This document shows, piece by piece, positions 41,376-60,047 of a stretch of 64,000 nucleotides of DNA. A program made the translations under genes and the position numbers. The notes below the pieces were generated by a model that worked only from the letters and a program-made list of their open reading frames with translations, made no database searches and was not told where the DNA came from. Within the stretch, counting starts at the first letter, position 1, and every line of letters starts with the position of its first letter. Source of the stretch: Tessaracoccus sp. OS52 (lineage in GTDB: Bacteria > Actinomycetota > Actinomycetes > Propionibacteriales > Propionibacteriaceae); NCBI RefSeq assembly GCF_020687685.1, contig NZ_JAJEWM010000001.1:62001-126000 (forward strand), in the 5' to 3' direction.

Positions 41376-42371
41376 TCAGCAGCCGTCCCAGCCGAGCCAG
41401 TCTGTGGCTTCGCGGGCGATGATCATGCTGATCCTGTCGGTGCCGACCATCGGCCGGCTCAGTTCGAACGAGCTGACGAAGACCAGTTCGTAGCGGCCCT
41501 GGTCGACGACGGCGACGTAGACCGGCTCGTATCCGTCCTTGGTCTCCAGCTTCACCGCACTGGCGCCGTAGATGGCCCGTACCTCGTCCAGGGTCATGCC
41601 CACCTGCGCCCCAGCCGCGGTCTGCTCACCGGCGCGCGTGAGGATGACTTCCATGACGTAGGCGTTGTTGTTGTAGGTCAGTGCGATTCCGCGGTCGGCC
41701 AGATCGCTCGAGACGTCCCAGTACTCGCACACGGAAGTCGACTTCCAGTCGATGTAGCCGAGCTTCTGCAGGTCACTCGTGCGGGCGTTGAGCCCCAGGG
41801 GTCCGAACCCGGTGTGCGTCAGCACGGACTGGTCCAGGATGTGGGCCGGCGCGCTCGTGACGGGCGGGATGGTTGGACTGGAGAACAGTACGAGGTTGTT
41901 GAACACCCACTTGCGCTGCGTGGAGTAGACCCACCGGCCGCCCACCACGGTCGCGGTGGCGACGTCGGCCAGGATGTAGCTGCGGCAGGCGCCACGCCCC
42001 GTGTTCGGGGTGTCGCACTCGGTGCGCCAGCTGCGGCCACTCGAGGTCCACACGACGTTCGGGCCATCGCTGTGGCCCAGGTTGTTGTCCGCCCACGCCG
42101 CGCGCGGCGAGGGCAGGTAGGTCAGGTTGTTGAACGTCCAGCCCGTGACGCGCTGGTAGGTGCCCTGGTGGTAGACCACCTGGGTGGCCCAGATCTCGGT
42201 CCTGCACCTCACGACGTTGCTGGAGTACATCTCGCACTCGGTGTTCCACAGCCGGCCGTTCTGGATCTGGCCGCCCGGGGTGTCATACACCGAGGCGTTG
42301 GCGACGACCGCTCCGGTCCCGATCACCACGACGGCCGCGATGAGCGTGAGGAGCCTTCTGAAGAGCAACAT
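41376..42371 (-). CDS. Secreted protein: two-repeat Cys domain plus BLIP/OmlA-like C-terminus
   Basis: A 331-residue exported protein with a signal peptide (RRLLTLIAAVVVIGTGAVVA). Residues ~28-165 carry the duplicated domain shared with the proteins at 42532 and 52268: GRLWNTECEMYSSNVVRC, GWTFNNLTYLPS, GRSWRTECDTPNTGRGAC, KWVFNNLVLF, with a Cys pair in each half. Residues ~190-331 resemble BLIP/SmpA-OmlA-type modules (GAQVGMTLDEVRAIYGAS, YELVFVSSFEL) and contain two further Cys. The function is unknown; a cell-envelope role is implied by export. It is divergent from the second protein bearing the same domain. Confidence 0.75.
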   Translation of the reverse strand: MLLFRRLLTLIAAVVVIGTGAVVANASVYDTPGGQIQNGRLWNTECEMYSSNVVRCRTEIWATQVVYHQGTYQRVTGWTFNNLTYLPSPRAAWADNNLGHSDGPNVVWTSSGRSWRTECDTPNTGRGACRSYILADVATATVVGGRWVYSTQRKWVFNNLVLFSSPTIPPVTSAPAHILDQSVLTHTGFGPLGLNARTSDLQKLGYIDWKSTSVCEYWDVSSDLADRGIALTYNNNAYVMEVILTRAGEQTAAGAQVGMTLDEVRAIYGASAVKLETKDGYEPVYVAVVDQGRYELVFVSSFELSRPMVGTDRISMIIAREATDWLGWDGC

Positions 42372-42531
42372 TCCAATCCCCCCTTTGGGATTTGATCCGA
42401 AAGGCCTACGGTACGTCCCGGTGGTGCCATTTCAGAGGGCTTTTCGCAATCACTGCACCAGCTGTCGACGCTTCTTCTGGACTGCTCGTTGACTAGGCTG
42501 TCCGGTGTCGCCGTGGGAGAGGAACTACATC

Positions 42532-44220
42532 ATGAGGAAGCTCCTGGTGCCGCTGCTGGCGGCCCTGGTGTCCATCGCGGGACTCGTCGCTGCGCCGCCC
42601 CCGGCGTCGGCCGCCACGGCGCAGTGGCGCTCGTTCTGGGTGGACACCTGGAACCCGGGGATCTTCGACGCGAGCCAGGTGCGACAAGTGGTGGCCGACG
42701 CCAAGGCCGCCAACGCCAACGTCCTGCTCGTGCAGGTGGTGCGGCGCTTCGAGTGCTACTGCAACAAGTCGGACTACCCCCGCACCACAGTCTCCGGCAT
42801 GAGCCCTGACTTCGACCCCCTCGCCGAGATCATCCGGCAGGGCCACGCGGCCGGGCTGGAGGTGCACGCCTGGGTCAACGTCAACACCTTCTGGTCATCC
42901 TCGACCCCGCCGCGGGACCCGGCCCACCCCTTCAACACCTTCGGCCCCACGGCCACAGGGGCCAACCGCTGGCTGAACAAGCGCTCCGACGGTGTGGAAC
43001 AGGTCGGAAGCAGCTCCTACCTCGACCTCGCCAACCCCGCGGCACGGGCCGACGTCGCACGTAGAGTCGCCTCCATCGTCGAGAACTACGCCGTCGACGG
43101 CATCAACCTGGACTACATCCGGTACCCGGATCACAACACGGGTGGCGCCGGCAACCAGTGGGGCTACTCGGAGACCTCGCTGCAGCGGTTCCGTACCGAG
43201 ACCGGGCGGACCGACAGGCCGACCGGCTCCGACTGGCAGTTCTCCGACTTCCGTCGGGCCCAGGTGACGGCGACGGTCTCAGGCATCCGGGACGCCATCA
43301 ATCGCGTCGCGCCGTCGGTGGAGCTCTCGGTGAACGGCATCTCCTACGGCTACGGCCCCTCCACCAACAAATCCTGGGAGTCCACCGACCCCTACGCCGC
43401 CGTCCTGCAGGACTGGGCGGGCTGGGCACGTCGGGGCCTGGTCGACGCCGTGGTGCTGATGAACTACAAGAGCGAGGCGAGTTCCACCCAGGCGGCGATG
43501 TTCGCTTCCTGGAACAAGTTCCTGGCCAGCCTGCAGCAGGAGACGGGCCGTGTAATGGTCTCTGGCCAGGGGCTGTACATGAACAGCATCGAGAACTCAC
43601 TCAAGCAGGCCCGCGACGTCACCTCACTCGGGCTCGGCTGGTCGGGTTACAGCTACGCCAACGCCAGCGCCGTCGCGGTCGACACCACCTCCCAGTCCAC
43701 CAAGACCGCCGAACGTCAGGCGCTCATCCGTGGCCTGGCGGCGGGGCCGTTCAAGGAGTGGGCCGCGCCGCCGCTGATGTCGTGGAAGCCCACCGCTTCA
43801 CGCGACCTCTACGTCATCCCCGGCTACCACGAGATCAACGGCCGCCAGTGGCGAACCGACTGCGAGGCCTACTCGCAGACCCGCCGGTGCCGCACCGACA
43901 TCCTGGCCACCCAGGTCACCTGGAACGGTTCCCGCTACGTCACCGAGACCGACTGGGTCTTCAACAACCTCACCTACCTGCCGCTGATGACCCGCGCGCA
44001 GTGGGCGGGCAACCCCCTGGGCTTCAGTGGGGAGTTCGTCTCCGACGGCCGCCCCTGGCGCACCGAGTGCGACACCCCGGCTACTGGCCGGGGCGGCTGC
44101 CGCAGCTCCGTCATGGTCTACGGCATCGTGCAGGCCACCCGCCACGCGAACGGCACCTACTCCTATGAGCGGGTGGACAAGTGGGTGTTCAACAACATGG
44201 TGCGCTTCCTGGAACGCTGA
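42532..44220 (+). CDS. Secreted GHL10 (DUF187)-family hydrolase with C-terminal two-repeat Cys domain
   Basis: A 562-residue exported protein (signal peptide KLLVPLLAALVSIAGLVAA, cleavage near ASA-AT). Residues ~35-410 form a GHL10 TIM barrel: VLLVQVVRRFECYC, DPLAEIIRQGHAAGLEVHAWVN, the strand VDGINLDYIRYPD with acidic residues in the expected active site, and VELSVNGISYGYG. Related enzymes act on cell-wall polysaccharides. Residues ~428-562 carry the shared domain (GRQWRTDCEAYSQTRRC, WVFNNLTYLP, GRPWRTECDTPATGRGGC, KWVFNNMVRF). The ATG at 42532 gives the normal signal peptide. Confidence 0.85.
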   Translation: MRKLLVPLLAALVSIAGLVAAPPPASAATAQWRSFWVDTWNPGIFDASQVRQVVADAKAANANVLLVQVVRRFECYCNKSDYPRTTVSGMSPDFDPLAEIIRQGHAAGLEVHAWVNVNTFWSSSTPPRDPAHPFNTFGPTATGANRWLNKRSDGVEQVGSSSYLDLANPAARADVARRVASIVENYAVDGINLDYIRYPDHNTGGAGNQWGYSETSLQRFRTETGRTDRPTGSDWQFSDFRRAQVTATVSGIRDAINRVAPSVELSVNGISYGYGPSTNKSWESTDPYAAVLQDWAGWARRGLVDAVVLMNYKSEASSTQAAMFASWNKFLASLQQETGRVMVSGQGLYMNSIENSLKQARDVTSLGLGWSGYSYANASAVAVDTTSQSTKTAERQALIRGLAAGPFKEWAAPPLMSWKPTASRDLYVIPGYHEINGRQWRTDCEAYSQTRRCRTDILATQVTWNGSRYVTETDWVFNNLTYLPLMTRAQWAGNPLGFSGEFVSDGRPWRTECDTPATGRGGCRSSVMVYGIVQATRHANGTYSYERVDKWVFNNMVRFLER

Positions 44221-44231
44221 GGCGGGAACCC

Positions 44232-45551
44232 TCAGGCACCCGTCACGAGCCAACCGTCGCCCCGCTGCCGCCACCACAAGGTCCATGACCTGGCCCCCAT
44301 GAACCCGACGCCGTACGCCAGCCAGAGCCATGCCAGCCCGTCGCCGCCCCCGGGCGCGAACCAGGCGACGGCGAGCGCCAACGGTGCGTAGACCCCCAGG
44401 GTGAAAACCCCTGCCCTGGCGAGGTAGCGGCCGTCCCCGGCTCCGATCAGCACACCGTCCATCAGACAGACGTAGGCGGTCAGGGTCAGGGTCGCGCCGA
44501 CGACGACCAGACCGGCGGATACCGCGTCGCGGACGGCGTCGTCGGGGCTGAACAGCCAGGCGATCTGGTGCCGGGCGGCAATTGTGAGGGCGCCGAGGAC
44601 CAGGCCCGCACCCACGGACCACCGGACCATCCGCCGGGTGATCGCACGGGCCTGTTCGACGCTCCCGGCGCCCAGTGCCATCCCGATCAGGGTCTGCCCG
44701 GCTATTCCCAGCGCGTCCAGTGCGTAGGAGAGGAATCCCCAGACGTTGTAGGTCACCTGGTGACCCGCGAGTGCCACGGCGCCCTTGTTGGCGGCGACCC
44801 AGGTCGTGAGGACCAGCGCCGCACGTAGGGTGACCGTCCGCATCAGCAGTGGGGTTCCGACGACCAGGCTGGACCGCATGCCTGTGACCGTCGGGCGCAG
44901 CGATGCTCCCTCGCGGCGGGCGCCGCGGCCCACGACCCAGGCTGCGGTGAACCCCATCAGGGTCTCGGCCACAGCCGTGGCCAGCCCTGAGCCGGCCACG
45001 CCCATGCCCAGCCCGAACACGAACACGAGGTCCAGCACCACGTTCGTGGCGGCGGCGCCGAAGGCCAGCACCAAGGGGGTGCTCGCGTCAGCCAGACCGC
45101 GCAGCGTGCCGGTGGCAGCCAGCATCAGCAACATTCCCGGCAGGCCCGGCAGGGACCAGCGCGCGTAGGCGACGGCGTGGCCGTGCACCTCGCCCGTCGC
45201 GCCCAGCCAGGAAGCCAGGTGCGGGGCCGCCAGCCAGACGAGCCAAGCGACGGCGACGGCGAGGGCCAGCGCGAGCCACATCGCCTGCACCCCGAGCTCG
45301 AGGGCCCGTCCGCGGTTGCCCGCGCCCAACTGGCGGGAGACCACCGCCGTCGACCCGTATGCGAGGAACACCGCCAGGCCGACGATGGTGGAGGTGATCG
45401 TCACGCCGGCGCCGAGCCCCGCCAGCGGGAGGGTGCCGAGCTGTCCGACGATGGCGGTGTCCGCGAGCAGGAACAGCGGCTGCGCGACGAGGGCGGCGAA
45501 AGCGGGGACGGCGAGCGCGAGGATGCGCCGGTCAAGCCCCTTGTCGCCCAT
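44232..45551 (-). CDS. MATE-family efflux protein (DinF-like)
   Basis: A 439-residue membrane protein with about 12 helices in two homologous halves. N-terminal signature: LALAVPAFAALVAQPLFLLADTAIVGQLGTLPLAGLG, typical of the DinF branch of Na+/H+-driven multidrug and toxin extrusion proteins; an internal match is YNVWGFLSYALDALGIAGQTLIG. Starts at ATG 45551 and is divergent from the asparaginase gene; ends 11 bp from the convergent GHL10 gene. Confidence 0.92.
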   Translation of the reverse strand: MGDKGLDRRILALAVPAFAALVAQPLFLLADTAIVGQLGTLPLAGLGAGVTITSTIVGLAVFLAYGSTAVVSRQLGAGNRGRALELGVQAMWLALALAVAVAWLVWLAAPHLASWLGATGEVHGHAVAYARWSLPGLPGMLLMLAATGTLRGLADASTPLVLAFGAAATNVVLDLVFVFGLGMGVAGSGLATAVAETLMGFTAAWVVGRGARREGASLRPTVTGMRSSLVVGTPLLMRTVTLRAALVLTTWVAANKGAVALAGHQVTYNVWGFLSYALDALGIAGQTLIGMALGAGSVEQARAITRRMVRWSVGAGLVLGALTIAARHQIAWLFSPDDAVRDAVSAGLVVVGATLTLTAYVCLMDGVLIGAGDGRYLARAGVFTLGVYAPLALAVAWFAPGGGDGLAWLWLAYGVGFMGARSWTLWWRQRGDGWLVTGA

Positions 45552-45635
45552 CTTCCTCCGCTCGCTGGAACGGCTCCGAGTCTAGGCCGGTGGTGGCGTG
45601 CGGTTGGCGGCACAACCCCTACGATCGGCTGGGTG

Positions 45636-46589
45636 ATGGGTCTTGAGGAGGCGCCGGTGGTGGCGCATGCGGTTCGCAGCGGTTTCGTGGAGTCGGTGCA
45701 TCGGGGGATCGGGGTGATCACCTCACCCGCAGGCGACGTCGAGTTCGCCGTGGGGGAGCCCGACACCGTGATCCTCCCGCGCTCCTCCAACAAGCCGATC
45801 CATGCCGTCGCGGCTCTCCGCGCGGGCGCGGTGCTCTCCTCGGAAGCCTTGGCCGTCGGGTGCGCCAGCCATTCCGGGGAGGCCGCACACCTCGGGGCGG
45901 TCCTGGACTCGCTCGCCGCCAGCGGTCTGGGGGTGCACGCGCTGCGCAACAGCCCCGACTTCCCGCTGGGCGAGGAGGCGAGGCTGGCCTGGATCCGCTC
46001 GGGGAGGGGAAAGGAATCGCTGGCGCAGAACTGCTCGGGGAACCACGCCGCGATGCTCGCAGCGTGCGTGGCCTCGGGCTGGGACCTCGGTTCCTACCAG
46101 GAGCCGACCCATCCGTTCCAGCGGCTGGCGGCGGAGACCACGGAGGACCTCGGCGGTGAGCGGGTGGTCGCCACCGCCGTCGACGGCTGCGGGGCGGCCT
46201 TGTTCGCGATCCCCCTGCTGGCGTTGGCCCGGGCCTTCGGCAGGCTCGCCGGAGCGGTTGGTGGCCCTGAGCGCGCCGTCGCCGACGCGATGCGCGCCCA
46301 CCCGCACCTCGTGGCCGGGCCCGGAAGGGACGTGACGGCGCTCATGCAGGGCGCTCCGGGACTGATCGCGAAGGACGGCGCCGAGGCGGTCTACGCCGTC
46401 GGACTCCCCGACGGTCGCGGGGTCGCCCTCAAGATCTCCGACGGCGGGGACCGCGCCCGCGCGATCCTGCTCGCCCACCTGCTGCGCCGAGCCGGCACCG
46501 TCGACGAAGCGGTCCTCCAACGACTGGAGACGGTCCCCGTCCTGGGTCACGGTCGGCCGGTGGGCGCGGTGGTCTGCGCGCTGGACTGA
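45636..46589 (+). CDS. Asparaginase (PF06089-type, L-asparaginase II family)
   Basis: A 317-residue protein of the asparaginase family typified by Rhizobium AnsA. Motifs: VAHAVRSGFVESVHRG, ILPRSSNKPIHAVAALRAGA, SHSGEAAHLGAVLDSLAASGL, NCSGNHAAMLAACVASGWDL and the C-terminal KISDGGDRARA. It is unrelated to the classical EcA-type asparaginases and would release ammonia from asparagine in the cytoplasm. The ATG at 45636 (overlapped by GTG 45633) follows a 90-bp divergent promoter region shared with the MATE gene. Confidence 0.9.
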   Translation: MGLEEAPVVAHAVRSGFVESVHRGIGVITSPAGDVEFAVGEPDTVILPRSSNKPIHAVAALRAGAVLSSEALAVGCASHSGEAAHLGAVLDSLAASGLGVHALRNSPDFPLGEEARLAWIRSGRGKESLAQNCSGNHAAMLAACVASGWDLGSYQEPTHPFQRLAAETTEDLGGERVVATAVDGCGAALFAIPLLALARAFGRLAGAVGGPERAVADAMRAHPHLVAGPGRDVTALMQGAPGLIAKDGAEAVYAVGLPDGRGVALKISDGGDRARAILLAHLLRRAGTVDEAVLQRLETVPVLGHGRPVGAVVCALD

Positions 46590-46630
46590 CTCCGGGGCCA
46601 GAAGAGGCCGGCCGGAGTATCCTTCCCGGC

Positions 46631-47446
46631 ATGCCCGATCGCCTGGTCCCCGACGACACCGTCCCGGGAGCCTTCGCCGTCAGGTTCGGCGACACCTCGC
46701 AGTCCTGGGTGGACCCCGCTCGGCCCGACTTCCTCGCCTTCGAGTACGTGCAGCACACGGCGATGCTGCTGGACCACACCATCCTGGATGCCCCTGCCGA
46801 GCAGCGGCTGCGGGTGGTGCACGTCGGCGGGGCCGCCATGTCCCTGCCGCGCTGGGTGGCGTGGCGCCGGCCCGGCACCGCCCAGATCGTGTGCGAGCCC
46901 GACGTCGAGCTCACCGAGGAGGTGCGGCGGAAGGTGCCCCTGCCGCCACGCTCGGGGATCAAGGTGCGCGACGTCGACGGCCGCACCGGCGTCGCCGCGA
47001 TGCCCGACGAGTACGCGGACGCGGTCATCGTCGATGCCTTCGACGGGTCGCACGTGCCGGGTGAGCTGGTCACCGCCGAGGCTTTCGACGACGTCCGCCG
47101 GATCGGCCGCGGCGCGGAGCTGATCATCTGCAACGTCACAGACCGTGCGCCGTTCCACTGGACCAAGCGCGTGGCCGCGGGCATCCGGCAGCGGTGGCGC
47201 CACGTCATCGTCGGTGCGGAATCCCCGGTCCACAAGGGAAAACGCTTCGGGAACCTGCTGCTCGCGGGATCGACGGCGCGCGCGGACCTGGCAGGCATTC
47301 GCCGTGAGTCCGGCAAGCTGCCGTTCGGCTACAGGTGGCTCGACGGGCGCGAGTTGACCAGTTGGATCGGTGATGCGGAGGAGTTCACCGACGCCGACAC
47401 CCAGCCCTCACCCGAGCCGTCGGGCAGCAAGCTCTGGTTCTCCTGA
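46631..47446 (+). CDS. Spermidine-synthase-like (polyamine aminopropyltransferase fold) protein
   Basis: A 271-residue class I SAM-binding-fold protein of the spermine/spermidine synthase-like group common in actinobacteria. The nucleotide region is RVVHVGGAAMSLPRW, followed by CEPDVELTEEVRRKVP, and ADAVIVDAFDGSHVPGEL matches the D-x-F-D active-site strand. The N-terminal beta-strand domain of true spermidine synthases is reduced, so a methyltransferase or other activity is possible. Terminates just before the family B repeat tract. Confidence 0.8.
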   Translation: MPDRLVPDDTVPGAFAVRFGDTSQSWVDPARPDFLAFEYVQHTAMLLDHTILDAPAEQRLRVVHVGGAAMSLPRWVAWRRPGTAQIVCEPDVELTEEVRRKVPLPPRSGIKVRDVDGRTGVAAMPDEYADAVIVDAFDGSHVPGELVTAEAFDDVRRIGRGAELIICNVTDRAPFHWTKRVAAGIRQRWRHVIVGAESPVHKGKRFGNLLLAGSTARADLAGIRRESGKLPFGYRWLDGRELTSWIGDAEEFTDADTQPSPEPSGSKLWFS

Positions 47447-47454
47447 CAGGGGCT

Positions 47455-47675
47455 GACCAGCGCTGCCGCGGGTTCACCAGCGCTTCCGTGGGTTCACCAG
47501 CGCTTCCGTGGGTTCACCAGCGCTTCCGTGGGTTCACCAGCGCTTCCGTGGGTTCACCAGCGCTTCCGTGGGTTCACCAGCGCTTCCGCGGGTTCACCAG
47601 CGCTTCCTCGGGTTCACCAGCGTTGTTGTCCGACACCAGCGCTACAAGGCTGGTGCCGGCGAACAACGCTGGTCA
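47455..47675. repeat. Family B repeat: eight 20-bp tandem units plus terminal hairpin
   Basis: Eight copies of a 20-bp unit (consensus ggttcaccagcgcttccgtg) run at an exact 20-bp period from about 47455 to 47614. They lead into a nested hairpin: outer stem ACCAGCGTTGTT/AACAACGCTGGT (47617-47628 with 47663-47674) and inner stem CACCAGC/GCTGGTG (47635-47641 with 47650-47656). It has the same unit, stems and order as the elements at 23827-24288. The 300-bp gap between genes holds nothing else. Confidence 0.92.
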
Positions 47676-47747
47676 ACGCGTCGCGGCCCCGGCCCAGGTC
47701 TCAGGGCACGCTGCGGGGGAGGGACGTCGGCTCGATAGGCTGGGCAC

Positions 47748-48443
47748 ATGTCCCGACCCCGCCGCAGCACTGCAGCCGGCACGTCGCCGTTGCGGGTCCT
47801 GGTGATGGTGCTGTTGTTCGCCGCGGTCGCGGGTGCGGGTTGGGCTGTCTGGCTCTACTGGGGGAGCGGCATGGTTGCCCGGGGGGCTGCCGACGACGCC
47901 GTCGCCCAGCTGCGTGACCGGTGGCAGGCAGCGAGCGACGACGCGGACCCCGGTTCCGCTGACGACGAGGAGTCGCCCCTGGTGGCGAGTCCCGTGGACG
48001 GAGTCGCGGAGTGGATCATCCGGATCCCCGCGCTGGGTGAGACCTGGGAGTGGCCGGTGGCCGTCGGGATCGGGGACGAGAGCCTCGCCGAGGCCGTCGG
48101 CTGGTACCCGGGGACGTCGCAGCCGGGGCAACTCGGCAACTTCGCCGTCGCCGGCCAGTGCATCACCGGTGCCCAGCCCTTCCGCGACCTGCGCACCATC
48201 GCCGTGGGCGACGTCGTCGTGGTGGAGGCCGCCGACGCCATCCACACCTACACGATCACCTCGGCGCCCACTCAGCTCACCGTCAGCGATGACGACCCCT
48301 GGGTGCTCGAGCCGGTGCCCGGCCAGGCCGACGCCGAGCCGACCCAGGCGTTCATCACCCTCACCACCTGCGAAGACCTGTACCCGACGCCGGACCGTTC
48401 CGTGGCCTTCGGCGTCCTGACCACGACGGAGCCCAAACCATGA
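47748..48443 (+). CDS. Class E-type sortase homolog lacking the catalytic His
   Basis: A 231-residue membrane-anchored protein: N-terminal transmembrane helix (LRVLVMVLLFAAVAGAGWAVW), a short acidic linker, then a sortase beta-barrel (~85-225). The catalytic cysteine is present, C208 in ITLTTCEDLYP, with R217 nearby. However, the segment that should read AGHR reads AGQC, so the catalytic His position is Q137 and the next residue C138. Fold motifs such as GNFAVAG, QPFRDLRTI and VEAADAIHTYTI are otherwise intact. It is either a non-transpeptidase sortase-fold protein or an inactivated enzyme. The stop overlaps pyrE by 4 bases. No LPXTG-type substrate is evident nearby. Confidence 0.85.
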   Translation: MSRPRRSTAAGTSPLRVLVMVLLFAAVAGAGWAVWLYWGSGMVARGAADDAVAQLRDRWQAASDDADPGSADDEESPLVASPVDGVAEWIIRIPALGETWEWPVAVGIGDESLAEAVGWYPGTSQPGQLGNFAVAGQCITGAQPFRDLRTIAVGDVVVVEAADAIHTYTITSAPTQLTVSDDDPWVLEPVPGQADAEPTQAFITLTTCEDLYPTPDRSVAFGVLTTTEPKP

Positions 48444-48979
48444 CCGACAAGCAGACCCTCATCGACGCCGTGCTGGACCTCGCCGTCGTACGCGGCCGAG
48501 TCACCCTCGCCTCCGGGAAGGAGGCCGACTACTACGTCGACATGCGCCGCGTCACCCTCGACGGCGCCGCCGCACCGGTCGTCGGACGGGTGATGAACGA
48601 CCTCGTCGCGGACCTGGAGTTCGACGCGGTGGGCGGACTCACGCTGGGGGCTGATCCCGTTGCCACCGCCATGCTGCACGCCCGCGCCGCCGCCGGCGGC
48701 CGCCTCGACGCGTTCGTCGTCCGAAAGGAGGCCAAGGCGCACGGCCTCCAGCGCCGCATCGAGGGCACCGACGTCGCCGGGCGGCGCGTCCTCGTGGTGG
48801 AGGACACCTCCACGACCGGAGGGTCGGCGCTGACAGCGGTCGAGGCCGTCCGGGAGGCGGGAGGCCAGGTCGTGGCGGTGGCCGTCGTGGTGGACCGCGG
48901 TACCGGGGCGGCCGAGAAGGTCGCGGAGGCGGGGCTGGAGTACCGGTTCGCGCTTGGTCTGGATGATCTGGGGCTGTGA
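48440..48979 (+). CDS. pyrE: Orotate phosphoribosyltransferase
   Basis: A 179-residue PyrE that makes orotidine 5'-phosphate from orotate and PRPP in de novo pyrimidine synthesis. Substrate region TLASGKEADYYVDMRRVTL, the flexible-loop KEAKAHGLQRRIEG, and the PRPP motif VLVVEDTSTTGGSALTAVEA are all present, and the length is normal. ATG 48440 overlaps the stop of the sortase-like gene (ATGA). A promoter for pyrE inside the upstream gene cannot be excluded. Confidence 0.95.
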   Translation: MTDKQTLIDAVLDLAVVRGRVTLASGKEADYYVDMRRVTLDGAAAPVVGRVMNDLVADLEFDAVGGLTLGADPVATAMLHARAAAGGRLDAFVVRKEAKAHGLQRRIEGTDVAGRRVLVVEDTSTTGGSALTAVEAVREAGGQVVAVAVVVDRGTGAAEKVAEAGLEYRFALGLDDLGL

Positions 48980-49028
48980 GGCCCCCGTGCCGATACGCTT
49001 GTCAACGACCGTGCCCTAAGGAGCTGCA

Positions 49029-49838
49029 ATGGAATTTCTACTTGGCCTGATCGGCGTGATCATCGTCGTCGGACTGATCGCCGTCATCTGGGGAATCAGC
49101 GTCTACAACGGCTTCATCAAGGGCCGGAACCTGATTCAGGAGTCCTGGCGCCAGATCGACGTGGAACTCAACCGTCGCTACGAGTTGATCCCCAACCTGG
49201 TGGAGACGGTTCGCGGTTACGCCGCCCACGAACGCAACACCCTCGAGCAGGTCACTTCGCTGCGCAACAGCGCCGCGGCCATGGCCAACCAGGCGCACGG
49301 AGCACCGAGCGAGCAGCGAGCCGCGATCGAGTCGGAGCTGTCGTCGGCGGTCCGCAACCTCATCGTGTCGGTGGAGGCGTACCCGGAGCTGAAGTCCAAC
49401 GTCAACTTCCTCGAGCTGCAGCGCGAGCTGACTGACACCGAGGACCGGATCGCCGCCGGGAGGCGGTTCTACAACGCCAACGTGCGCGACTACAACACCC
49501 GGATCGAAACCGTCCCGAGCAACATCATCGCGGGCTTCGCCAACTTCGAGAAGGCCACCTACTTCGAGGTCAACGACCCCCAGGTCCGGCAGGCCCCCGA
49601 CGTGAACTTCGGCGAGATCTCCCAGCGTCCCTCGGGCCAGTACCAGCAGCAGCCGCAGCAACTGCCCAACCCCGGTCAGTACCAGCAACAGCCCTACTCC
49701 GCGCCATCGGCCGATCCCGCCGCCCAGCCGCAGTACCAGCAGCAGCCGTACCAGCAGCAGCCGTACCAGCAGCAGCCGTACCAGGAGCAGAACCCCCAGC
49801 AGCCGGGCGGCTACCAGCCTCCCTACCGCAACCAGTGA
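49029..49838 (+). CDS. lemA: LemA-family membrane protein with Gln/Pro/Tyr-rich tail
   Basis: A 269-residue LemA protein. An N-terminal transmembrane helix (LIGVIIVVGLIAVIWGISVYNG) is followed by the conserved helical-bundle start NLIQESWRQIDVELNRRYELIPNLVETV and YPELKSNVNFLELQRELT, DTEDRIAAGRRFYN and FANFEKATYFEV. The last ~70 residues are a low-complexity tail of PYQQQ-type repeats, coded by 15-bp tandem repeats near 49735-49790. Function of LemA is poorly defined (envelope-associated). Its end overlaps the SPOUT methyltransferase gene by 4 bases. Confidence 0.93.
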   Translation: MEFLLGLIGVIIVVGLIAVIWGISVYNGFIKGRNLIQESWRQIDVELNRRYELIPNLVETVRGYAAHERNTLEQVTSLRNSAAAMANQAHGAPSEQRAAIESELSSAVRNLIVSVEAYPELKSNVNFLELQRELTDTEDRIAAGRRFYNANVRDYNTRIETVPSNIIAGFANFEKATYFEVNDPQVRQAPDVNFGEISQRPSGQYQQQPQQLPNPGQYQQQPYSAPSADPAAQPQYQQQPYQQQPYQQQPYQEQNPQQPGGYQPPYRNQ

Positions 49839-50503
49839 CCGACCCACGACGGCCCGCTCCGGATGAGCGGGCCGTCGACCACGTCGCGGACCCGACGCTG
49901 CCCACCGTCGGCGTCGGGCCCCACACCGAGCCCTGGCCCGAGGATCCCAGGCTGGACCCGGACCTCCTGCGTGAGGGCGACCGCCGAAACGTCGGCGACG
50001 AGTACCGCTACTGGAGACTGGAGGCCATCGTTGCTGACCTGGACGAGCGGCGCGCGCCCCTGCACGTCGCCATCCAGAACTGGGAGCACGACTTCAACAT
50101 CGGTTCAATGGTCCGCACCGCCAACGCCTTCAACGTCGCCGGCGTCCACATCGTCGGCCGCCGACGGTGGAACCGCCGCGGCGCGATGGTCACGGACCGC
50201 TACCTGCACGTCCACCACCACGACGACGAGGCCGACCTGTTCGCATGGTTGGCGGAGCGGGGGATCTCGCCCGTCGGCGTCGACAACCTGCCGTCCTCCG
50301 TACCGCTGGAGGCTGCCGAGCTGCCGCGCGACTGCTGCCTGGTCTTCGGGTCCGAGGGGCCCGGGTTGACCGACGAGATGGTGGCGGGGTGCGCCCAGCT
50401 GGTGGCCATCACGCAGTACGGCTCGACGCGCTCCATGAACGCCGGAGCGGCGGCCGCGATAGCCATGTACCACTGGAGCCTGCAGCACCGCGGGCGACCT
50501 TGA
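49835..50503 (+). CDS. SPOUT/TrmH-family RNA 2'-O-methyltransferase
   Basis: A 222-residue SpoU-family enzyme predicted to methylate a ribose in tRNA or rRNA. Motif 1: NWEHDFNIGSMVRTANAFNVAGV; motif 2: CCLVFGSEGPGLTDEM; motif 3: QYGSTRSMNAGAAAAIAMY, forming the trefoil-knot SAM site. The GTG at 49835 overlaps the lemA stop; the first ~50 residues are a polar extension. Target nucleotide not predictable. Confidence 0.92.
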   Translation: MTDPRRPAPDERAVDHVADPTLPTVGVGPHTEPWPEDPRLDPDLLREGDRRNVGDEYRYWRLEAIVADLDERRAPLHVAIQNWEHDFNIGSMVRTANAFNVAGVHIVGRRRWNRRGAMVTDRYLHVHHHDDEADLFAWLAERGISPVGVDNLPSSVPLEAAELPRDCCLVFGSEGPGLTDEMVAGCAQLVAITQYGSTRSMNAGAAAAIAMYHWSLQHRGRP

Positions 50504-50513
50504 CGGCGCTAGC

Positions 50514-51062
50514 ATGACAGCCATGCTGCCTGAGCGATTCACCGTCGGCCTCACGCCGCTGCCGACGGCGCAGCGCGTGGTGCGGCAACGCGGCGCACTT
50601 CGGCTCCGGATCATCTCGGCGGTCGTCTCGCTCGCCATCCTCGCGGCGCTGGTGTTCTTCTTCAACCCGGGCTGGAGCCTGGGATGGGTCATCGCACTGT
50701 TCGTGATCTGGGGGGTCTCGACGGCGGTGTGGATGACCATCTCGGCCGTCGGACTGCACCGCGCCAAGCGGGACCTCGCCGCGATCGGACACGGAGACGC
50801 GCTCTACATCGACGCGCAGGGCATCGAGTTCGTGCACCCGCGCCCCGTCCGGGCGCGGTGGTCGGAGATCACCGGCCTGAAGATCACCGGGCCGAGCTTC
50901 GGGGCCGGTCCCAACCTGGTGATGGAGACCGACGGCAAGCCAGTCGCGAAGATCCCGATGAGCTTCCTCGACGCCATGCCGGCGGCCATCGACTCCGCAG
51001 CGAGCGCGCGCTCCTTGGGACGGGTGCACGTCGACGTCAGTGAGATGGACCGCATGCTCTGA
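50514..51062 (+). CDS. YcxB-like membrane protein, unknown function
   Basis: A 182-residue protein with two adjacent transmembrane helices (IISAVVSLAILAALVFFF, WVIALFVIWGVSTAVWMTI) followed by a ~110-residue cytoplasmic domain (ALYIDAQGIEFVHPRPVRARWSEI), the PH-like pattern of YcxB-type proteins. Either ATG 50514 or ATG 50523 is possible. Follows the methyltransferase gene by 10 bp. Confidence 0.75.
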   Translation: MTAMLPERFTVGLTPLPTAQRVVRQRGALRLRIISAVVSLAILAALVFFFNPGWSLGWVIALFVIWGVSTAVWMTISAVGLHRAKRDLAAIGHGDALYIDAQGIEFVHPRPVRARWSEITGLKITGPSFGAGPNLVMETDGKPVAKIPMSFLDAMPAAIDSAASARSLGRVHVDVSEMDRML

Positions 51063-51144
51063 TGGTGGGCCTCCCCGATTCGCCACGAACCGGAGGAGAT
51101 AGGGTTGGGGCAACCCATGTCTCAAGATATGAAAAGAGGGCATC

Positions 51145-52167
<1,023 letters not shown>

Positions 52168-52217
52168 CGGTTGGCGTGGGGGCTTTCCCGCCCCGGCTCA
52201 CGCGACAAGCTGAACAG

Positions 52218-52257
52218 ACGACTGCGGCCCATCCCCTCGGGGATGGGCCGCAGTCGT
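52218..52257. terminator. Bidirectional terminator between fba and the subtilase gene
   Basis: A perfect stem of about 18-19 bp (acgactgcggcccatccc and its complement) with a CTCG tetraloop serves both convergent genes. Confidence 0.92.
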
Positions 52258-52267
52258 CATGTCCGGG

Positions 52268-55200
52268 TCAGCTGAAGCGGACGATGTTGTTGAACACCCA
52301 CTTCTGCGTCCAGCGGTAACCGCCCTGCGGCGCCACCTCGATCACCTTCGCCACCGAATAGCTTCGGCAGCCGTTGCGGCCAGTGCTCGGGGTCCCGCAC
52401 TCGGTTCGCCACTGACGCCCGTCCGAAGCCGTCCACTGACCACCGGCCGCCAGTGGATTGCCGACCCACAACGCCTTCGACGACGGCAGATAGGTCAGGT
52501 TGTTGAACACCCACCTGGTCTGTGCGATGAACCGGCCGCCCTGCTCGATCACGGTGGTCGCCATTATGGAGGTCCGACAGCGGACGGTCTGTGAGTAGGG
52601 CTCGCAGGCCGTGAACCAGTCCCTCCCGTTGACGCGGTGGTAGCCGGGGGTCGAGTACAGGTCGACCTGCGGGTTGGGCGCCGTCGGGGAGGCCGACGGT
52701 GTGGCCGAGGGGGAGGGCGTACGGGCGTTCTTCACCCCGAACGCCGGCGACGTCCAGACCTGCGTGCCACCGTCGCCGTCGGCCTCGTGGGCGGTGAGCC
52801 GGAGGGCGTAGTTGCCGGGGGCGACCTCGCGGGTCAGGCCGTCGGCCTGCTGGACTCGTCCATCCCACGACCACAGGCTCAGACCGGAGTCGCGGCCGAT
52901 CCTGTCCACGCCCAGCGCGGGTCTCGCGCTGCCCTCGATGACCTTCCCTGCCGCATCGACCTGCAGTGCGTGCAGTTCCAACCTGAGCACCGGGACGGCC
53001 AGGTGGAGCGCGATGGTGGGCAGATCCCGGCCCAGGGCGAAATTGCGGCCCGCAGGGGCGTAGTCGAAGTCGGCGGCGGGATCGACGCACTGCTGCTCCT
53101 CCCAGTAGCCGCACTTGTCGACGGTGACCAGAGCCGGCAGTCCCAAGTCCAGGTCCGGGAAGACCTTGAGGTTGCCGTAGTCGCCGGCCATGCCGGCGAA
53201 CGGGATGGTCAGCGGGTCGGAACCCTCGTCGTCCCGCAGGACGAGGTAGCCGCTGTACTGGGACCCCTCCATGGCGTCGGGGTCCGCCGCGATCGTGACG
53301 TCGACCTGGGCGGTGCCGCCGGCGGGCGCCGTGACGGTGGGCGCGGAGAACCGCACGGAGGACTCCAGCACGGTGAAGGCGACACTGTTCTGCGTTGGGA
53401 CCTCGGCGCCGCTGTCGACATAGGTGGAAACGGCGTCCTCGTGGCTGAGGGTGTAGGTGACCGGAGTCGCCGAGGTGTTGCTGATGGTGAGCGTCTCGGT
53501 GTGGGGTCCGTCGGCGGACTCGCCGGCCGAGATCTTGCCGGGTTTCACGACGGTGCCACCAAGGATCGCCTTGTCAACCTGGATCAGGCCGGCGCCCTGG
53601 TGGTGCGCGGCGTCCAGTACCCCGGACTGGGGGGCGTAGGAGAACATCGTCGGAGTCGCGGTGTTCTGCAGCCTGCTGAGGATCTCATCAGGAGCCAGGC
53701 CGGGGTCCGCGTCGAGCATCAAGGCGACCGCGCCTGCGACGTGCGGCGCCGACATCGACGTCCCGGAGTTGGTGAGGTAGCCACCCTTTTCGAGCGGGAA
53801 GGTGGAGCGGATGGAGCCGCCGGGTGCGCTGAGGTCGGGCTTCAGCGTCAGGTCGGCTGCCAGTCCCCAGGACGAGAACCCGGAGACGAGGCCTCCGGTG
53901 GGGTTGGGCTGCGACGTGGACTCGCCGGTCAACTTGACCGTGGGAGTCACGCGGTCGGCGTCGGTCAGCATCTTGTTGATGGACTGACCCTGCGCCTGGG
54001 TGACCGTCATGACCGGGATGGTGATCGCGGTCGAACCTTCGACGGTGGCGTTGAGGACGCCTGCCTCGTGGTTGGCGAGCAGCAACGCCTCGGCGCCCGC
54101 CTGCTGCGCGAACAGCGCCTTCTCGTGGAAGGAGCAGGTGCCGCGGCTGGTGACGGCGATCAGGCCCGTCAGGTTCCTCGTCTCGGCCACGCAGCCCTGC
54201 GGGTCCGTAGTCCAGGCGAGCTTCAGCCCATTGAGGGAGGCATCAGGATCCGGGGAACCGGCGGCGGGCAGGATGCCGACGGACGCCGTCTCCTGCGGGT
54301 CGTCGATGACCAGGAGCTCATCGAGCAGCAGTGCGGTGTTGTCGTGCGAGGCGACGGAGATGACGTTCTTTCCGACACCCGGAGCGCCGGTGGCCTGGGT
54401 GAAGGACTCACCGTCGTTGCCTGCTGAGGCGACGACGACGACACCCGCCTCCACCAGCCTGTCCGCGGCCTGCTCCGACGGGTAGTCGGGCCAGGTCTGG
54501 AACCCGGAGCCCAGGGACAGGTTGACGACGTCCATGCCGTCGGTGAGTGCCTGCTCCATCGCTGAGAGGATGATCTCGGTGTCGGTTGAACCGCCGCAGC
54601 CGAAGACGCGGTAGGCGCCGAACGTGACGCCGGGTGCCACCCCGTCCACCTCACCCGAGGCTCCGACGATCCCGGCCACGTGGGTGCCATGGCCCTGGCA
54701 GTCATCTGGGATGGAGTCCGGCTTGGGTACGGGCTGGTAGCCCGGAGAGAGCGGGTCGGCGTTGTAGTCGTCGCCGACGAAATCCCGGCCGTGCGTGACC
54801 CGCGCGGTCGGGAAATTGCCACCGTCGACGCCGGTGCCGCCCAGGTCAGGGTGGTCGAAGTCGACGCCGCTGTCGATGATCCCGACCCGGACGCCTTCCC
54901 CGTCGTGGCCGAGTTCGGAGCGCACCACGTCCGCGCCCGTCATGGCCACAGCCGACGAGAGCTGGGGGTTGACCGCTTGGGGCTCGGGGAGTTCCACGGG
55001 CACGACCGGGTAGACCGCCGTGACGCCCGGCAGATCCGCGAGCGCAGCGGCGCCCTCGGCGTCGGACGAGACCGACATCCCGTTGAACAGCCTCTGGTAG
55101 CGCTTGGAAACGGTGACGGGGATTGACCTGCGCTTGGCGTCGCTGACGAACTTGTCCTGTTGGGCCCGGACTGTGGACGAGGAGCCGCCGCTGACTGTGG

Positions 55201-55384
55201 GCTCGCTGGCGAACTCGATGAACCACTTTCCGGTGGTGGCGAACCTGGCGGTCAGTTCCGAGGGTGTCACGTGGTCGGAGGAATCACCCAGGTCCCCAGC
55301 CGTGTCCGCGGCCGCCGGAACCGTCGGAGCGAGCAGAGCGAAGACGGCAGTCACGGCCGCGACTCGAAGCCAGGTTGCACGCAT
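52268..55384 (-). CDS. Secreted S8 subtilisin-like protease with C-terminal two-repeat Cys domain
   Basis: A 1038-residue exported protease. Signal peptide (VAAVTAVFALLAPTVPAAA), I9-type propeptide (~45-130), S8 catalytic domain with D171 (GIIDSGVDFDHPDL), H232 (GHGTHVAGIVG) and S543 (GTSMSAPHVAGA). A PA domain is inserted at ~355-485 (FAQQAGAEALLLANHEAG), then Fn3-like/Ig-like regions follow. Residues ~690-890 are beta-rich and unassigned. A Thr/Pro/Ser linker (SPSATPSASPTAP) leads to the ~130-residue domain shared with 41376 and 42532 (GRDWFTACEPYSQTVRC, WVFNNLTYLPSS, GRQWRTECGTPSTGRNGC, KWVFNNIVRF). No LPXTG anchor is seen. Confidence 0.93.
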   Translation of the reverse strand: MRATWLRVAAVTAVFALLAPTVPAAADTAGDLGDSSDHVTPSELTARFATTGKWFIEFASEPTVSGGSSSTVRAQQDKFVSDAKRRSIPVTVSKRYQRLFNGMSVSSDAEGAAALADLPGVTAVYPVVPVELPEPQAVNPQLSSAVAMTGADVVRSELGHDGEGVRVGIIDSGVDFDHPDLGGTGVDGGNFPTARVTHGRDFVGDDYNADPLSPGYQPVPKPDSIPDDCQGHGTHVAGIVGASGEVDGVAPGVTFGAYRVFGCGGSTDTEIILSAMEQALTDGMDVVNLSLGSGFQTWPDYPSEQAADRLVEAGVVVVASAGNDGESFTQATGAPGVGKNVISVASHDNTALLLDELLVIDDPQETASVGILPAAGSPDPDASLNGLKLAWTTDPQGCVAETRNLTGLIAVTSRGTCSFHEKALFAQQAGAEALLLANHEAGVLNATVEGSTAITIPVMTVTQAQGQSINKMLTDADRVTPTVKLTGESTSQPNPTGGLVSGFSSWGLAADLTLKPDLSAPGGSIRSTFPLEKGGYLTNSGTSMSAPHVAGAVALMLDADPGLAPDEILSRLQNTATPTMFSYAPQSGVLDAAHHQGAGLIQVDKAILGGTVVKPGKISAGESADGPHTETLTISNTSATPVTYTLSHEDAVSTYVDSGAEVPTQNSVAFTVLESSVRFSAPTVTAPAGGTAQVDVTIAADPDAMEGSQYSGYLVLRDDEGSDPLTIPFAGMAGDYGNLKVFPDLDLGLPALVTVDKCGYWEEQQCVDPAADFDYAPAGRNFALGRDLPTIALHLAVPVLRLELHALQVDAAGKVIEGSARPALGVDRIGRDSGLSLWSWDGRVQQADGLTREVAPGNYALRLTAHEADGDGGTQVWTSPAFGVKNARTPSPSATPSASPTAPNPQVDLYSTPGYHRVNGRDWFTACEPYSQTVRCRTSIMATTVIEQGGRFIAQTRWVFNNLTYLPSSKALWVGNPLAAGGQWTASDGRQWRTECGTPSTGRNGCRSYSVAKVIEVAPQGGYRWTQKWVFNNIVRFS

Positions 55385-57897: not shown

Positions 57898-58279
57898 GGG
57901 CCAACCCCTTCGTGAACTCCTCGAGCTTGGCCATCTCGGCGCGGTAGGAGTCGAGGATCTCGCCCTGCAAGGACTTCAGGCCTTCGGTCACCTCGGCCAT
58001 GTCGGGCATGCCCGCGAGTTGCGCCATGGCCTGGTCGCGTGCGCCCGCGAGTGCTTCATTCGCAGCCTCCCGGATCAGGGCTGCGAGCTGGGACGGTGGG
58101 ACGCGGACCGGCTCGGTGATCTCGATGGCGACGATCTCGTTGTCGGTGGCGCGCACGACGATGGAGCGGTCGTCGCGGCTGGCTTCGACCTCGATGGGTG
58201 CGAGTTCCTGGCCCTGTCTGGGAACGGGGTTCCCGGAACTGGCAGCGAATTCGATCACCCTCGCAACCGTGTCGGCCAT
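57890..58279 (-). CDS. YbaB/EbfC-family nucleoid-associated-like protein of the type VII locus
   Basis: A 129-residue protein with the YbaB/EbfC fold: an N-terminal helix, strands around ASRDDRSIVVRATDNEIVAIEI, and a C-terminal helix (ALIREAANEALAGARDQAMAQL). YbaB-like proteins of this type commonly precede WXG100-like genes in actinobacterial ESX loci. The ATG at 58279 has AGGAG seven bases upstream; the in-frame start at 58315 is less good. First gene of the four-gene secretion/toxin operon. Confidence 0.8.
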   Translation of the reverse strand: MADTVARVIEFAASSGNPVPRQGQELAPIEVEASRDDRSIVVRATDNEIVAIEITEPVRVPPSQLAALIREAANEALAGARDQAMAQLAGMPDMAEVTEGLKSLQGEILDSYRAEMAKLEEFTKGLARE

Positions 58280-58433
58280 GGTGGCTCCTGCGGGACGGTC
58301 AGATGACTGGGACATTCGGCCTCCTCACCCCCGAAACGCTAGTGGCCGCGGGGTCACGGGCCGCTGGGTCCGGGTACTCAAAAAACTCGTTCCATCACAG
58401 TTTGGTAACCCCGCTTCACCTTCGAGAGACGCA

Positions 58434-58469
58434 GTGCTAGCGTTAACACCGTCGTTGGCAGCGCTAACA
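58434..58469. promoter_or_regulatory. Direct-repeat operator pair upstream of the RbsABC-like operon
   Basis: AGCGTTAACA (58439-58448) and AGCGCTAACA (58460-58469) are direct repeats exactly 21 bp apart, two helical turns. Each lies within a partial palindrome (gtgctagcgttaacac; ttggcagcgctaaca). A reverse-oriented AACGCTAG occurs at 58335-58342. They look like sites for a LacI- or ROK-type sugar regulator not encoded in the window. The rest of 58280-58526 shows nothing else. Confidence 0.6.
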
Positions 58470-58526
58470 TCGCGTCGCCTCGTGGCGGCGAACCTGGTTT
58501 GGAAGAAGACGTACGAAGGAGTACGA

Positions 58527-60047
58527 GTGACGAAGACACTGCTCGAACTGCGCAACATCAGCAAGACGTTCCCGGGCGTGAAGGCCCTGCAGAACGTCAG
58601 CCTCGATCTTCGGGCCGGAGAGGTGCTCGGACTGTGCGGAGAGAACGGGGCCGGCAAGTCCACGCTCATGAAGGTGCTGACCGGCATCTACACCCATGAC
58701 CCGGGGGGCGAGATCTGGATCGACGGGGAGCACGTCGAGGTCTCCGGCGTGAACCATGCGCGTGACCTGGGCCTGTCGATCATCCACCAGGAACTGAACA
58801 TGGTCAGCGACCTCACGGTTGCGCAGAACCTCTACATCGGTCGAAAGGGTAGCCACAACGGTGGCTGGATCAACGACGCCAAGATGAACCGCAAGGCCGA
58901 GGAACTGTTCCAGCGCCTTGGGATGGACATCAACCCGAAGGCGCGCGTCGGTGACCTCTCCGTTGCGCGTCAGCAGATGGTCGAGATCGCGCGCGCCCTC
59001 TCCTACGACTCTCGGATCCTGGTCATGGACGAGCCGACGGCGGCCCTCACCATCTCGGAGACCGAGGCGCTGTTCGGGATGATCCGAGACTTCATCACTC
59101 CTGAGACCGGTCTGATCTACATCTCCCACCGCATGCCGGAGATCGAGGAGATCACCGACCGTGTCAGCGTCCTGCGCGACGGCCAGTACGTGGGCACCGT
59201 CAACACCCACGAGGTGGAGATGCGAGAGATCATCTCCATGATGGTCGGCCGCGAGGTGTCCGCAGAGGCCCGCCCGCGCAACAAGCGACTCTCCGACGAA
59301 GTGGTACTGAAGGTCTCCAACCTGAGCAGCCGCCACCTGCTGCGCGACATCAACTTCGAGGTCCGCAAGGGCGAGATCCTCGGGTTCGCCGGGCTCATGG
59401 GTGCCGGACGCACCGAGGTGGCCCGTGCGGTGTTCGGGGCTGACCCGCGAACCAGCGGCGACATCGAACTCCATGGCCGCAAGATCAACATCCGTGCCGC
59501 CGCCGACGCCGTGCGCAACGGGATCGGGTACCTGTCAGAGGACCGCAAGGCCTTCGGGCTCCTGCTGGACCAGGACGTCAAGACCAACGCCGTGATGGCC
59601 GCCATGAACGACTACAACGTCGGCGGGTTCATCGACGACGGCAAGATCCGCACGGTCGCGCTCGACATGGTCAGCCGCCTGCGGGTCAAGACGCCGTCGG
59701 TGAACCAGCTGATGCGCAACCTCTCCGGCGGAAACCAGCAGAAGGTGGTCATCGCAAAGTGGTTGCTCCGCAACTGTGAGGTCCTGATCTTCGACGAGCC
59801 GACCCGCGGCATCGACGTCGGCGCCAAGGAGGAGATCTACGCACTCCTGGAGACCCTCAGCAAGGAGGGCAAGGCGATCATCATGATCAGCTCGGAACTC
59901 CCCGAGGTCCTGCGGATGTCACACAGGATCGCGGTCATGGCACACGGTCACATCACCGGAATCCTCGACAACGAGGACGCCACACAGGAAAACATCATGG
60001 AACTCGCCACCGTCGGCAAGGCCCAACTGAATGGAGAAGCAGCGTGA
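58527..60047 (+). CDS. Sugar ABC transporter ATP-binding protein (RbsA/MglA/XylG type)
   Basis: A 506-residue protein with two fused ATPase domains. First: Walker A GENGAGKSTLMKVL, signature LSVARQQMVEIARAL, Walker B ILVMDEPTAALT. Second: a degenerate Walker A (GLMGAGRTEVARAV, typical of this class), signature LSGGNQQKVVIAKWL and Walker B VLIFDEPTRGID. It energises import by the permease at 60044. The GTG at 58527 follows GAAGGAG; the large upstream extension of the frame crosses the operator region and is rejected. The stop overlaps the permease start (GTGA). Confidence 0.94.
   Translation: MTKTLLELRNISKTFPGVKALQNVSLDLRAGEVLGLCGENGAGKSTLMKVLTGIYTHDPGGEIWIDGEHVEVSGVNHARDLGLSIIHQELNMVSDLTVAQNLYIGRKGSHNGGWINDAKMNRKAEELFQRLGMDINPKARVGDLSVARQQMVEIARALSYDSRILVMDEPTAALTISETEALFGMIRDFITPETGLIYISHRMPEIEEITDRVSVLRDGQYVGTVNTHEVEMREIISMMVGREVSAEARPRNKRLSDEVVLKVSNLSSRHLLRDINFEVRKGEILGFAGLMGAGRTEVARAVFGADPRTSGDIELHGRKINIRAAADAVRNGIGYLSEDRKAFGLLLDQDVKTNAVMAAMNDYNVGGFIDDGKIRTVALDMVSRLRVKTPSVNQLMRNLSGGNQQKVVIAKWLLRNCEVLIFDEPTRGIDVGAKEEIYALLETLSKEGKAIIMISSELPEVLRMSHRIAVMAHGHITGILDNEDATQENIMELATVGKAQLNGEAA

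Follow-up and report, generated by a model that had tools for sequence, protein, structure and literature searches.

Three proteins encoded close together in Tessaracoccus sp. OS52 had been predicted to share a cysteine-containing domain of about 135 amino acids that could not be named, which raises the question of what this domain is, how widely it is used and what it does for the proteins that carry it.

Module copies in the window

Within the window, the whole stretch of 64,000 nucleotides that was analysed, translation, HMM searches and alignment located the common domain, hereafter the module, in all three proteins and where it had been predicted. The first is a putatively exported 331 amino acid protein (41376..42371, minus strand) which, from its translation and a hydrophobic signal-peptide heuristic, consists of a signal peptide, the module, a linker and a C-terminal domain without a family; it has no Pfam match above cut-off. 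Its module (copy A; residues ~27–165; 41877..42293, minus strand), recognised by HMM match and alignment as are the other two, is of the N-terminal type and follows directly upon the signal peptide. The second, a 562 amino acid GHL10 glycosyl-hydrolase-like protein (42532..44220, plus strand; PF02638, 80.5 bits against a cut-off of 27.9), also predicted to be exported, carries a C-terminal module (copy B; residues ~425–561; 43804..44214, plus strand) that stops one residue short of the last. The third is a 1038 amino acid subtilase of the exported type (52268..55384, minus strand) with PF00082 (S8), PF02225 (PA) and PF06280 (fn3_5) domains, the C-terminal module of which (copy C; residues ~908–1038; 52271..52663, minus strand) runs to the last residue. 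The module is N-terminal in one protein and C-terminal in two, just as the original prediction had it. Copies B and C show 51% and 55% identity to copy A. With the GHL10 copy as query against the whole 3.3-Mb host genome, the other two window copies were found with E-values of 1.2e-43 and 3.7e-34, and their likeness is therefore not due to chance.

The internal duplication, with one cysteine pair per half, is real. Comparison of half 1 with half 2 by hhalign gave a probability of 99.0 and an E-value of 2.6e-18; an HMM of half 1 matched 95 of 96 second halves (1 of 1920 shuffled sequences), and an HMM of half 2 all 96 first halves (0 of 1920). Exactly four cysteines are present in 95 of the 96 aligned module copies; in the GHL10 copy the pair of half 1 has the spacing C-x8-C and that of half 2 the spacing C-x9-C. 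In half 1 both cysteines, a tryptophan and an arginine are kept in 96/96 copies, their counterparts in half 2 are kept in 93–95, and the asparagine pair which closes each half in 89–96. For copy B, AlphaFold returned a confident all-beta unit (pLDDT 94.8, pTM 0.82), in agreement with the beta-fold that structure prediction had been expected to reveal, and the module probably contains two disulfides.

The module found nothing above cut-off in Pfam or NCBIfam; the PDB offered no match by sequence and none by structure that was convincing. None of the searches made thus linked it significantly to a characterised family, in keeping with the earlier impression that this was not a named domain. Nor was a description of it found in the literature searched, the available portions of PMC5527093, PMC7913060, PMC3848858 and PMC5817068 included. 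The module is a real, undescribed and genus-restricted domain family.

Distribution

Occurrence at this locus only is contradicted by 34 further matches in the host and by the pattern across the genus. Across 36 reading frames, the host genome (3.3 Mb, 14 contigs) contains 37 module matches, of which three are partial. A species-wide scan of genome_contigs, which contains one genome for each of 84,980 species, used two strict conserved peptide patterns and yielded 95 relatives; the 80 that were kept make up 78 loci, all of them in Tessaracoccus, Arachnia or Propionibacteriaceae metagenome-assembled genomes. The search of actinobacterial genomes with a profile, as had been proposed, likewise found the module confined to one genus, Tessaracoccus/Arachnia. 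Among 147 genomes sampled from the family it was present in five, belonging to one of 29 genera (the best 28 candidates per genome were scored, and weak homologues may escape). It was absent from 24 further genomes of the same order, and in 396 genomes of the phylum only the host matched (best 10 candidates per genome, with the same reservation); a lone non-host match of 16 bits contained a stop and was judged spurious.

Inside the genus the distribution is nearly all-or-none. The profile detected the module in 15 of 39 genomes, fourteen of which have 11–66 copies and one a single copy, while 24 have none. The counts are 37 (host), at least 64 (among the best 106 of 117 candidates), 48, 53, 43, 38, 11, 59, 66, 42, 17, 48, 16, 29 and 1. 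The single module, in G019 (99% complete), lies on an 834 amino acid frame without a Pfam match (L160:9994-12495), and is either a last remnant or a recent arrival.

A ClpB tree was constructed for 35 of the 39 genomes (G014, G035, G008 and G194, with no or a partial ClpB match, were left out), on which the nearest relative of the host is G026 (88% ClpB identity). The classes "many" and "none or one" require at least seven changes on this tree, and well-supported branches make five of these unavoidable. With shuffled labels about 10.7 are needed, and 5–6 of 500 shuffles were as low; presence of the module is patchy yet more clustered than in the shuffles, so that the all-or-none pattern is partly one of shared descent. 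Module-free G028 pairs with G020 (38 modules), and module-free G007 groups with the host (37) and G026 (66).

No module was found in viral contigs and phages, so the argument for wall binding that an endolysin carrier would offer is missing. Spread by plasmids was considered and rejected: the only matches, ten Roseomonas plasmid records (33% identity over half the length, E about 0.5), overlap genes annotated for other functions and were judged to be chance.

Carriers and placement of the module

A signal-peptide-like start was seen in 34 of the 36 host frames by a hydrophobicity script (not SignalP). Neither L113, on the plus strand, nor L123 has such a start; for L101 and L109 the script picked a wrong start and a better one is visible. 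When 35 host frames were scored for placement (L123, a partial match of 59 bits, was left out), the module was C-terminal in 18, directly after the signal peptide in 16, and internal in one, an M23 peptidase. In the 18 C-terminal cases it closes the protein, with NNIVRFS or similar ending 0–1 residue before the stop. The 98 frames in public loci comprise 58 C-terminal and 36 N-terminal modules, three that are neither and one that is cut.

A Pfam scan of all 36 host frames identified peptidoglycan-active partners over cut-off, namely YkuD (2), NlpC/P60, M23, M15 and a DPBB lytic transglycosylase. Further partners are M14, CAP, subtilase, GHL10 (2), GH53, pullulanase, DUF4185, C5-epimerase, LRR and Lipoprotein_Ltp domains, as well as metallophosphoesterases (4, one being a 5'-nucleotidase) and glucose/sorbosone dehydrogenases (2). 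Ten of the 36 frames gave no Pfam family over cut-off. What the carriers have in common is their apparent export, not a substrate. One module per protein is the rule; at L119:4562-7111 the only host protein with two in tandem, of the YkuD (L,D-transpeptidase-type) kind, adjoins a DPBB lytic-transglycosylase-type protein with one.

The module had been called mobile, and its fusion to many enzyme families bears this out. Free hopping between protein ends does not follow from it: in the module tree N- and C-terminal forms mostly branch apart (10 position changes against about 41 with shuffled labels), and the well-supported branches force only one change of position, few forks being resolved.

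Exchange with LPxTG-like ends

Orthologues of the host 5'-nucleotidase (L114) occur in 34 of the 39 genomes, and the ends of 30 were read (G015, G031, G008 and G035 were left out). In ten of them, each from a module-bearing genome, the protein finishes with the module, at most 8 residues from the stop. Another sixteen end in LPxTG or PPxTG, 1–4 residues from the stop; 15 of these belong to module-free genomes and the sixteenth to G022, which has 11 modules. The typical end is PGLPSTGN, usually behind a proline-rich or acidic linker, with a single residue between the glycine of the motif and the TGA in 15 of the 16 and four in G024; in G018 and G028, PP replaces LP. The remaining four, in G021, G033, G012 and, with a broken frame, G016, end otherwise. 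Among those left out, coordinates suggest a module end in G031, and coordinates together with the frame suggest that G015 (17 modules) has kept the LPxTG end, a second exception beside G022. Inspection by eye of the 150 bases past the stop revealed no continuing membrane span with a charged tail; a GC-rich inverted repeat is often present there.

On the ClpB tree (27 genomes) the type of nucleotidase end changed at least five times. Fisher's test of LPxTG end against module-bearing status gave p = 0.0004, uncorrected for kinship; a test of the swap on phylogenetically independent pairs was underpowered, only four pairs being available, about three of them as expected (p = 0.25). A second enzyme presents the same alternation: the host phosphoesterase L103, with a module, is 68% identical over 456 amino acids to L236 of module-free G035 (85% complete), which ends RPGLPPTGV-stop. 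In module-free G017 and G027 the GHL10 orthologue carries, at the place of the module, an unrelated C-terminal stretch and not LPxTG. The close relatives G021 and G033 (L193, L194) possess neither modules nor matches to the LPxTG-x-stop pattern, and their nucleotidase has a KPHKPG-rich tail with a terminal cysteine; they are in a third state, both kinds of end having been lost.

Putatively exported proteins that end in PGLPxTG plus one residue, lacking a membrane span or charged tail, occur throughout the genus (L185-L214, L215-L239, L245-L284). The DNA pattern LPxTG-x-TGA had 198 matches in the 39 genomes, compared to 16 for a reversed control. From these, 62 distinct sites were picked and examined, which is not a random sample. 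Of these, 47 end PGLPxTGx and 53 lie in a frame 90 or more amino acids long. Within the 53 frames, 30 have a signal-peptide-like start (16 run past the sequence stretch examined), and a strongly hydrophobic stretch within the final 60 residues occurs in just one. Such tails might act as anchors, a role that the lack of the usual membrane span makes less certain. They are not new in kind: the part of PMC5527093 available describes DsA1 of C. acnes as an LPXTG protein that lacks both a membrane-spanning domain and a charged tail, although its motif lies at position 411 of 432 and the genus tails are mostly one residue from the end. Three propionibacteria are credited with 12–18 LPXTG proteins, nucleotidase and phosphoesterase proteins included, in the accessible part of PMC3848858. 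The same portions of these two sources hold no mention of an LPxTG tail alternating with a folded module at orthologous ends.

Module-bearing genomes retain some LPxTG-x-stop proteins, which counts against a surface-retention reading of the module; the host keeps three convincing ones (L259-L261). A numerical trade-off between LPxTG tails and modules was rejected, the difference between the genome classes not being significant (medians 2 and 4; Mann-Whitney p = 0.28).

Search for partner machinery

Thirteen neighbour families recur near modules in at least four genomes. Eight are named by Pfam (PEPCK, PFK, ABC transporters, CNNM, a ribosome-binding-type GTPase, CoA-transferase and permease among them), three we take to be ClpB, aldolase and LemA, and two are without annotation. 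They look like housekeeping genes, and none of the thirteen resembles anchoring machinery. A pyruvylated glycopolymer such as serves SLH domains was also considered, and dismissed: PF04230 occurs in 7 of 15 module-bearing genomes (single-copy G019 included) and 7 of 24 module-free ones, and does not track the module. Relatives of an ABC transporter ATPase and BPD_transp_2 permease pair encoded in the window (57948-61099, plus strand) lie close to a module at another place in the host genome and also in two further genomes, probably by coincidence.

The window also encodes a class E sortase homologue (47748-48443, plus strand; NF033747, 161 bits against a cut-off of 160; PF04203). At the presumed catalytic positions, the cysteine is kept and the histidine is replaced (AGQ). 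The orthologue in G026 reads AGR at the histidine site, those of G028 and G020 have lost both residues, and G025 and three others are intact; judging by these residues, the enzyme is perhaps decaying into a non-enzyme in several species. Its decay as the cause of module use was rejected, since module-bearing G025, G032 and G013 keep both histidine and cysteine while module-free G028 has lost both.

Function of the module

We consider it fairly probable, from the sequence evidence assembled here, that the module is a lineage-specific cell-surface retention domain, most likely non-covalent in its attachment, which can replace an LPxTG-type tail. Attachment to the envelope had been proposed at the outset, and is favoured by the exported carriers, by the peptidoglycan-active partners and, above all, by the LPxTG exchange; the case is coherent but indirect. 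Where one and the same enzyme ends in the module in some genomes and in LPxTG in others, the simplest supposition is that the module does a similar job, namely surface retention. Its use at either end of a protein favours binding by a folded domain over cleavage, and its absence in sister species suggests dependence on a factor that can be lost, for example a wall glycopolymer.

The carriers would leave the cell through their signal peptide. Outside, each half would form four beta strands held together by one disulfide, the two halves joining in one compact all-beta unit. This unit may then bind a wall component, most likely non-covalently, and so hold the enzyme at the envelope, a secondary wall glycopolymer being the likeliest ligand. 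In the module lineages it would have replaced a C-terminal tailless LPxTG motif on some proteins, which is the presumed direction of the exchange.

A more ambitious reading, which we hold to be possible though somewhat doubtful, is that Tessaracoccus has a surface-display system of its own, made of a fold with no known relative and a lineage-specific wall glycopolymer or receptor, and that it displaced an ancestral tailless LPxTG pathway. Were this so, a large share of the surface proteome would change over in one step whenever the partner is gained or lost, and this would account for species with dozens of copies standing beside sister species with none.

It is unlikely that the module belongs instead to a dedicated sorting system, in which it would be read by a specific receptor or enzyme and the anchoring would be covalent or need processing. 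The C-terminal domains of the T9SS and LPXTG are signals recognised in this way by specific machinery. Genomes with dozens of tagged proteins or none, one module per protein (the host tandem excepted) at its extreme end, and the exchange with an LPxTG-like tail all resemble a tag and its machinery. Signals for cleavage and transfer are, however, not usually found at either end of a protein, as the module is, and its C-terminal copies stop at NNIVRFS or the like, neither a membrane span nor a charged tail being present. Moreover, no linked machinery gene was found among the recurring neighbours, and the confidently predicted fold and conserved cysteines look like a binding unit.

Rather improbable is a carbohydrate-binding module that sends exoenzymes to an environmental polysaccharide and not to the cell's own wall. 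Several partners do act on carbohydrates (pullulanase, GH53, GHL10), but others are peptidoglycan hydrolases, L,D-transpeptidase-type domains, a nucleotidase, phosphatases, a protease, LRR and glucose dehydrogenase, which have no common outside substrate; the near all-or-none distribution inside one genus also speaks against it. A cap for stability, folding or protection of exported proteins, with no anchoring role, would suit the terminal position, the compact predicted fold and the broad range of partners, but is very improbable, as it leaves the exchange with LPxTG-like tails unexplained and relatives have orthologues without a cap, the GHL10 protein of G017 and G027 bearing its unrelated stretch instead.

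If retention at the surface is the true role, a domain with no match in Pfam, NCBIfam or the PDB serves to display a large part of the surface proteome in many species of a single genus, and its carriers would presumably be annotated from their enzyme half or left without a name. The pattern between sister species amounts to a natural experiment: a comparison of closely related pairs with complete genomes should reveal the partner gene. The exchange bears on whether, and how, the tailless LPXTG proteins of the Propionibacteriaceae stay at the cell surface, and should binding be confirmed, its use at both protein termini would make the 135 amino acid domain convenient as a display tag.

Comparison with known systems

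The closest known systems include single beta-propeller blades (LGI1 EPTP, GH43, NirN), for which the structural match was not convincing. The Pfam scan of the 96 module copies matched ten families at E ≤ 0.1. One was dermatopontin (DERM, PF14704), which also has repeats with W-and-C motifs; its matches were weak, in two of the 96 copies, the best E-value of 0.018 being at chance level over 96 queries, and DERM was not found in the 396 actinobacterial genomes or in any of the 14 controls. LysM, SH3b and PG_binding_1 matched neither the 96 copies nor the 36 whole host carriers.

LPXTG/sortase anchoring resembles the module in occupying the same C-terminal place on the orthologous nucleotidase and phosphoesterase. 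The module differs in being a 135 amino acid folded domain without a sorting motif, used N-terminally as well, and the combination of LPXTG-like motif, hydrophobic span and charged tail that marks a sortase substrate was not seen at the ends of the 18 host proteins with a C-terminal copy.

SLH (PF00395) is, like the module, a short repeated unit on many exported proteins, and its carriers include pullulanases. Its fold is helical, whereas the module is predicted to be all-beta, and it has three repeats where the module has two halves; there is no sequence match, PF00395 being found in none of the 96 copies and in 0 of the 39 Tessaracoccus/Arachnia genomes, against 4 of 14 controls. In the portion of PMC5817068 available, SLH is described as binding a wall polymer non-covalently. 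The same portion describes 29 proteins of one species, Clostridioides difficile, with CWB2 wall-binding domains on varied effector parts, a number close to the 37 module matches in the host. There CWB2 mostly takes the form of three adjacent domains of ~90 amino acids, against two ~55 amino acid halves that make one unit in the module, and PF04122 (CWB2) is not among the ten families matched at this threshold. The module is a new domain family with a known kind of job, that of SLH, CWB2 and LPXTG, and as far as the literature and database searches made can show, novelty appears to lie in the domain itself, in its spread and in its alternation with an LPxTG-like tail.
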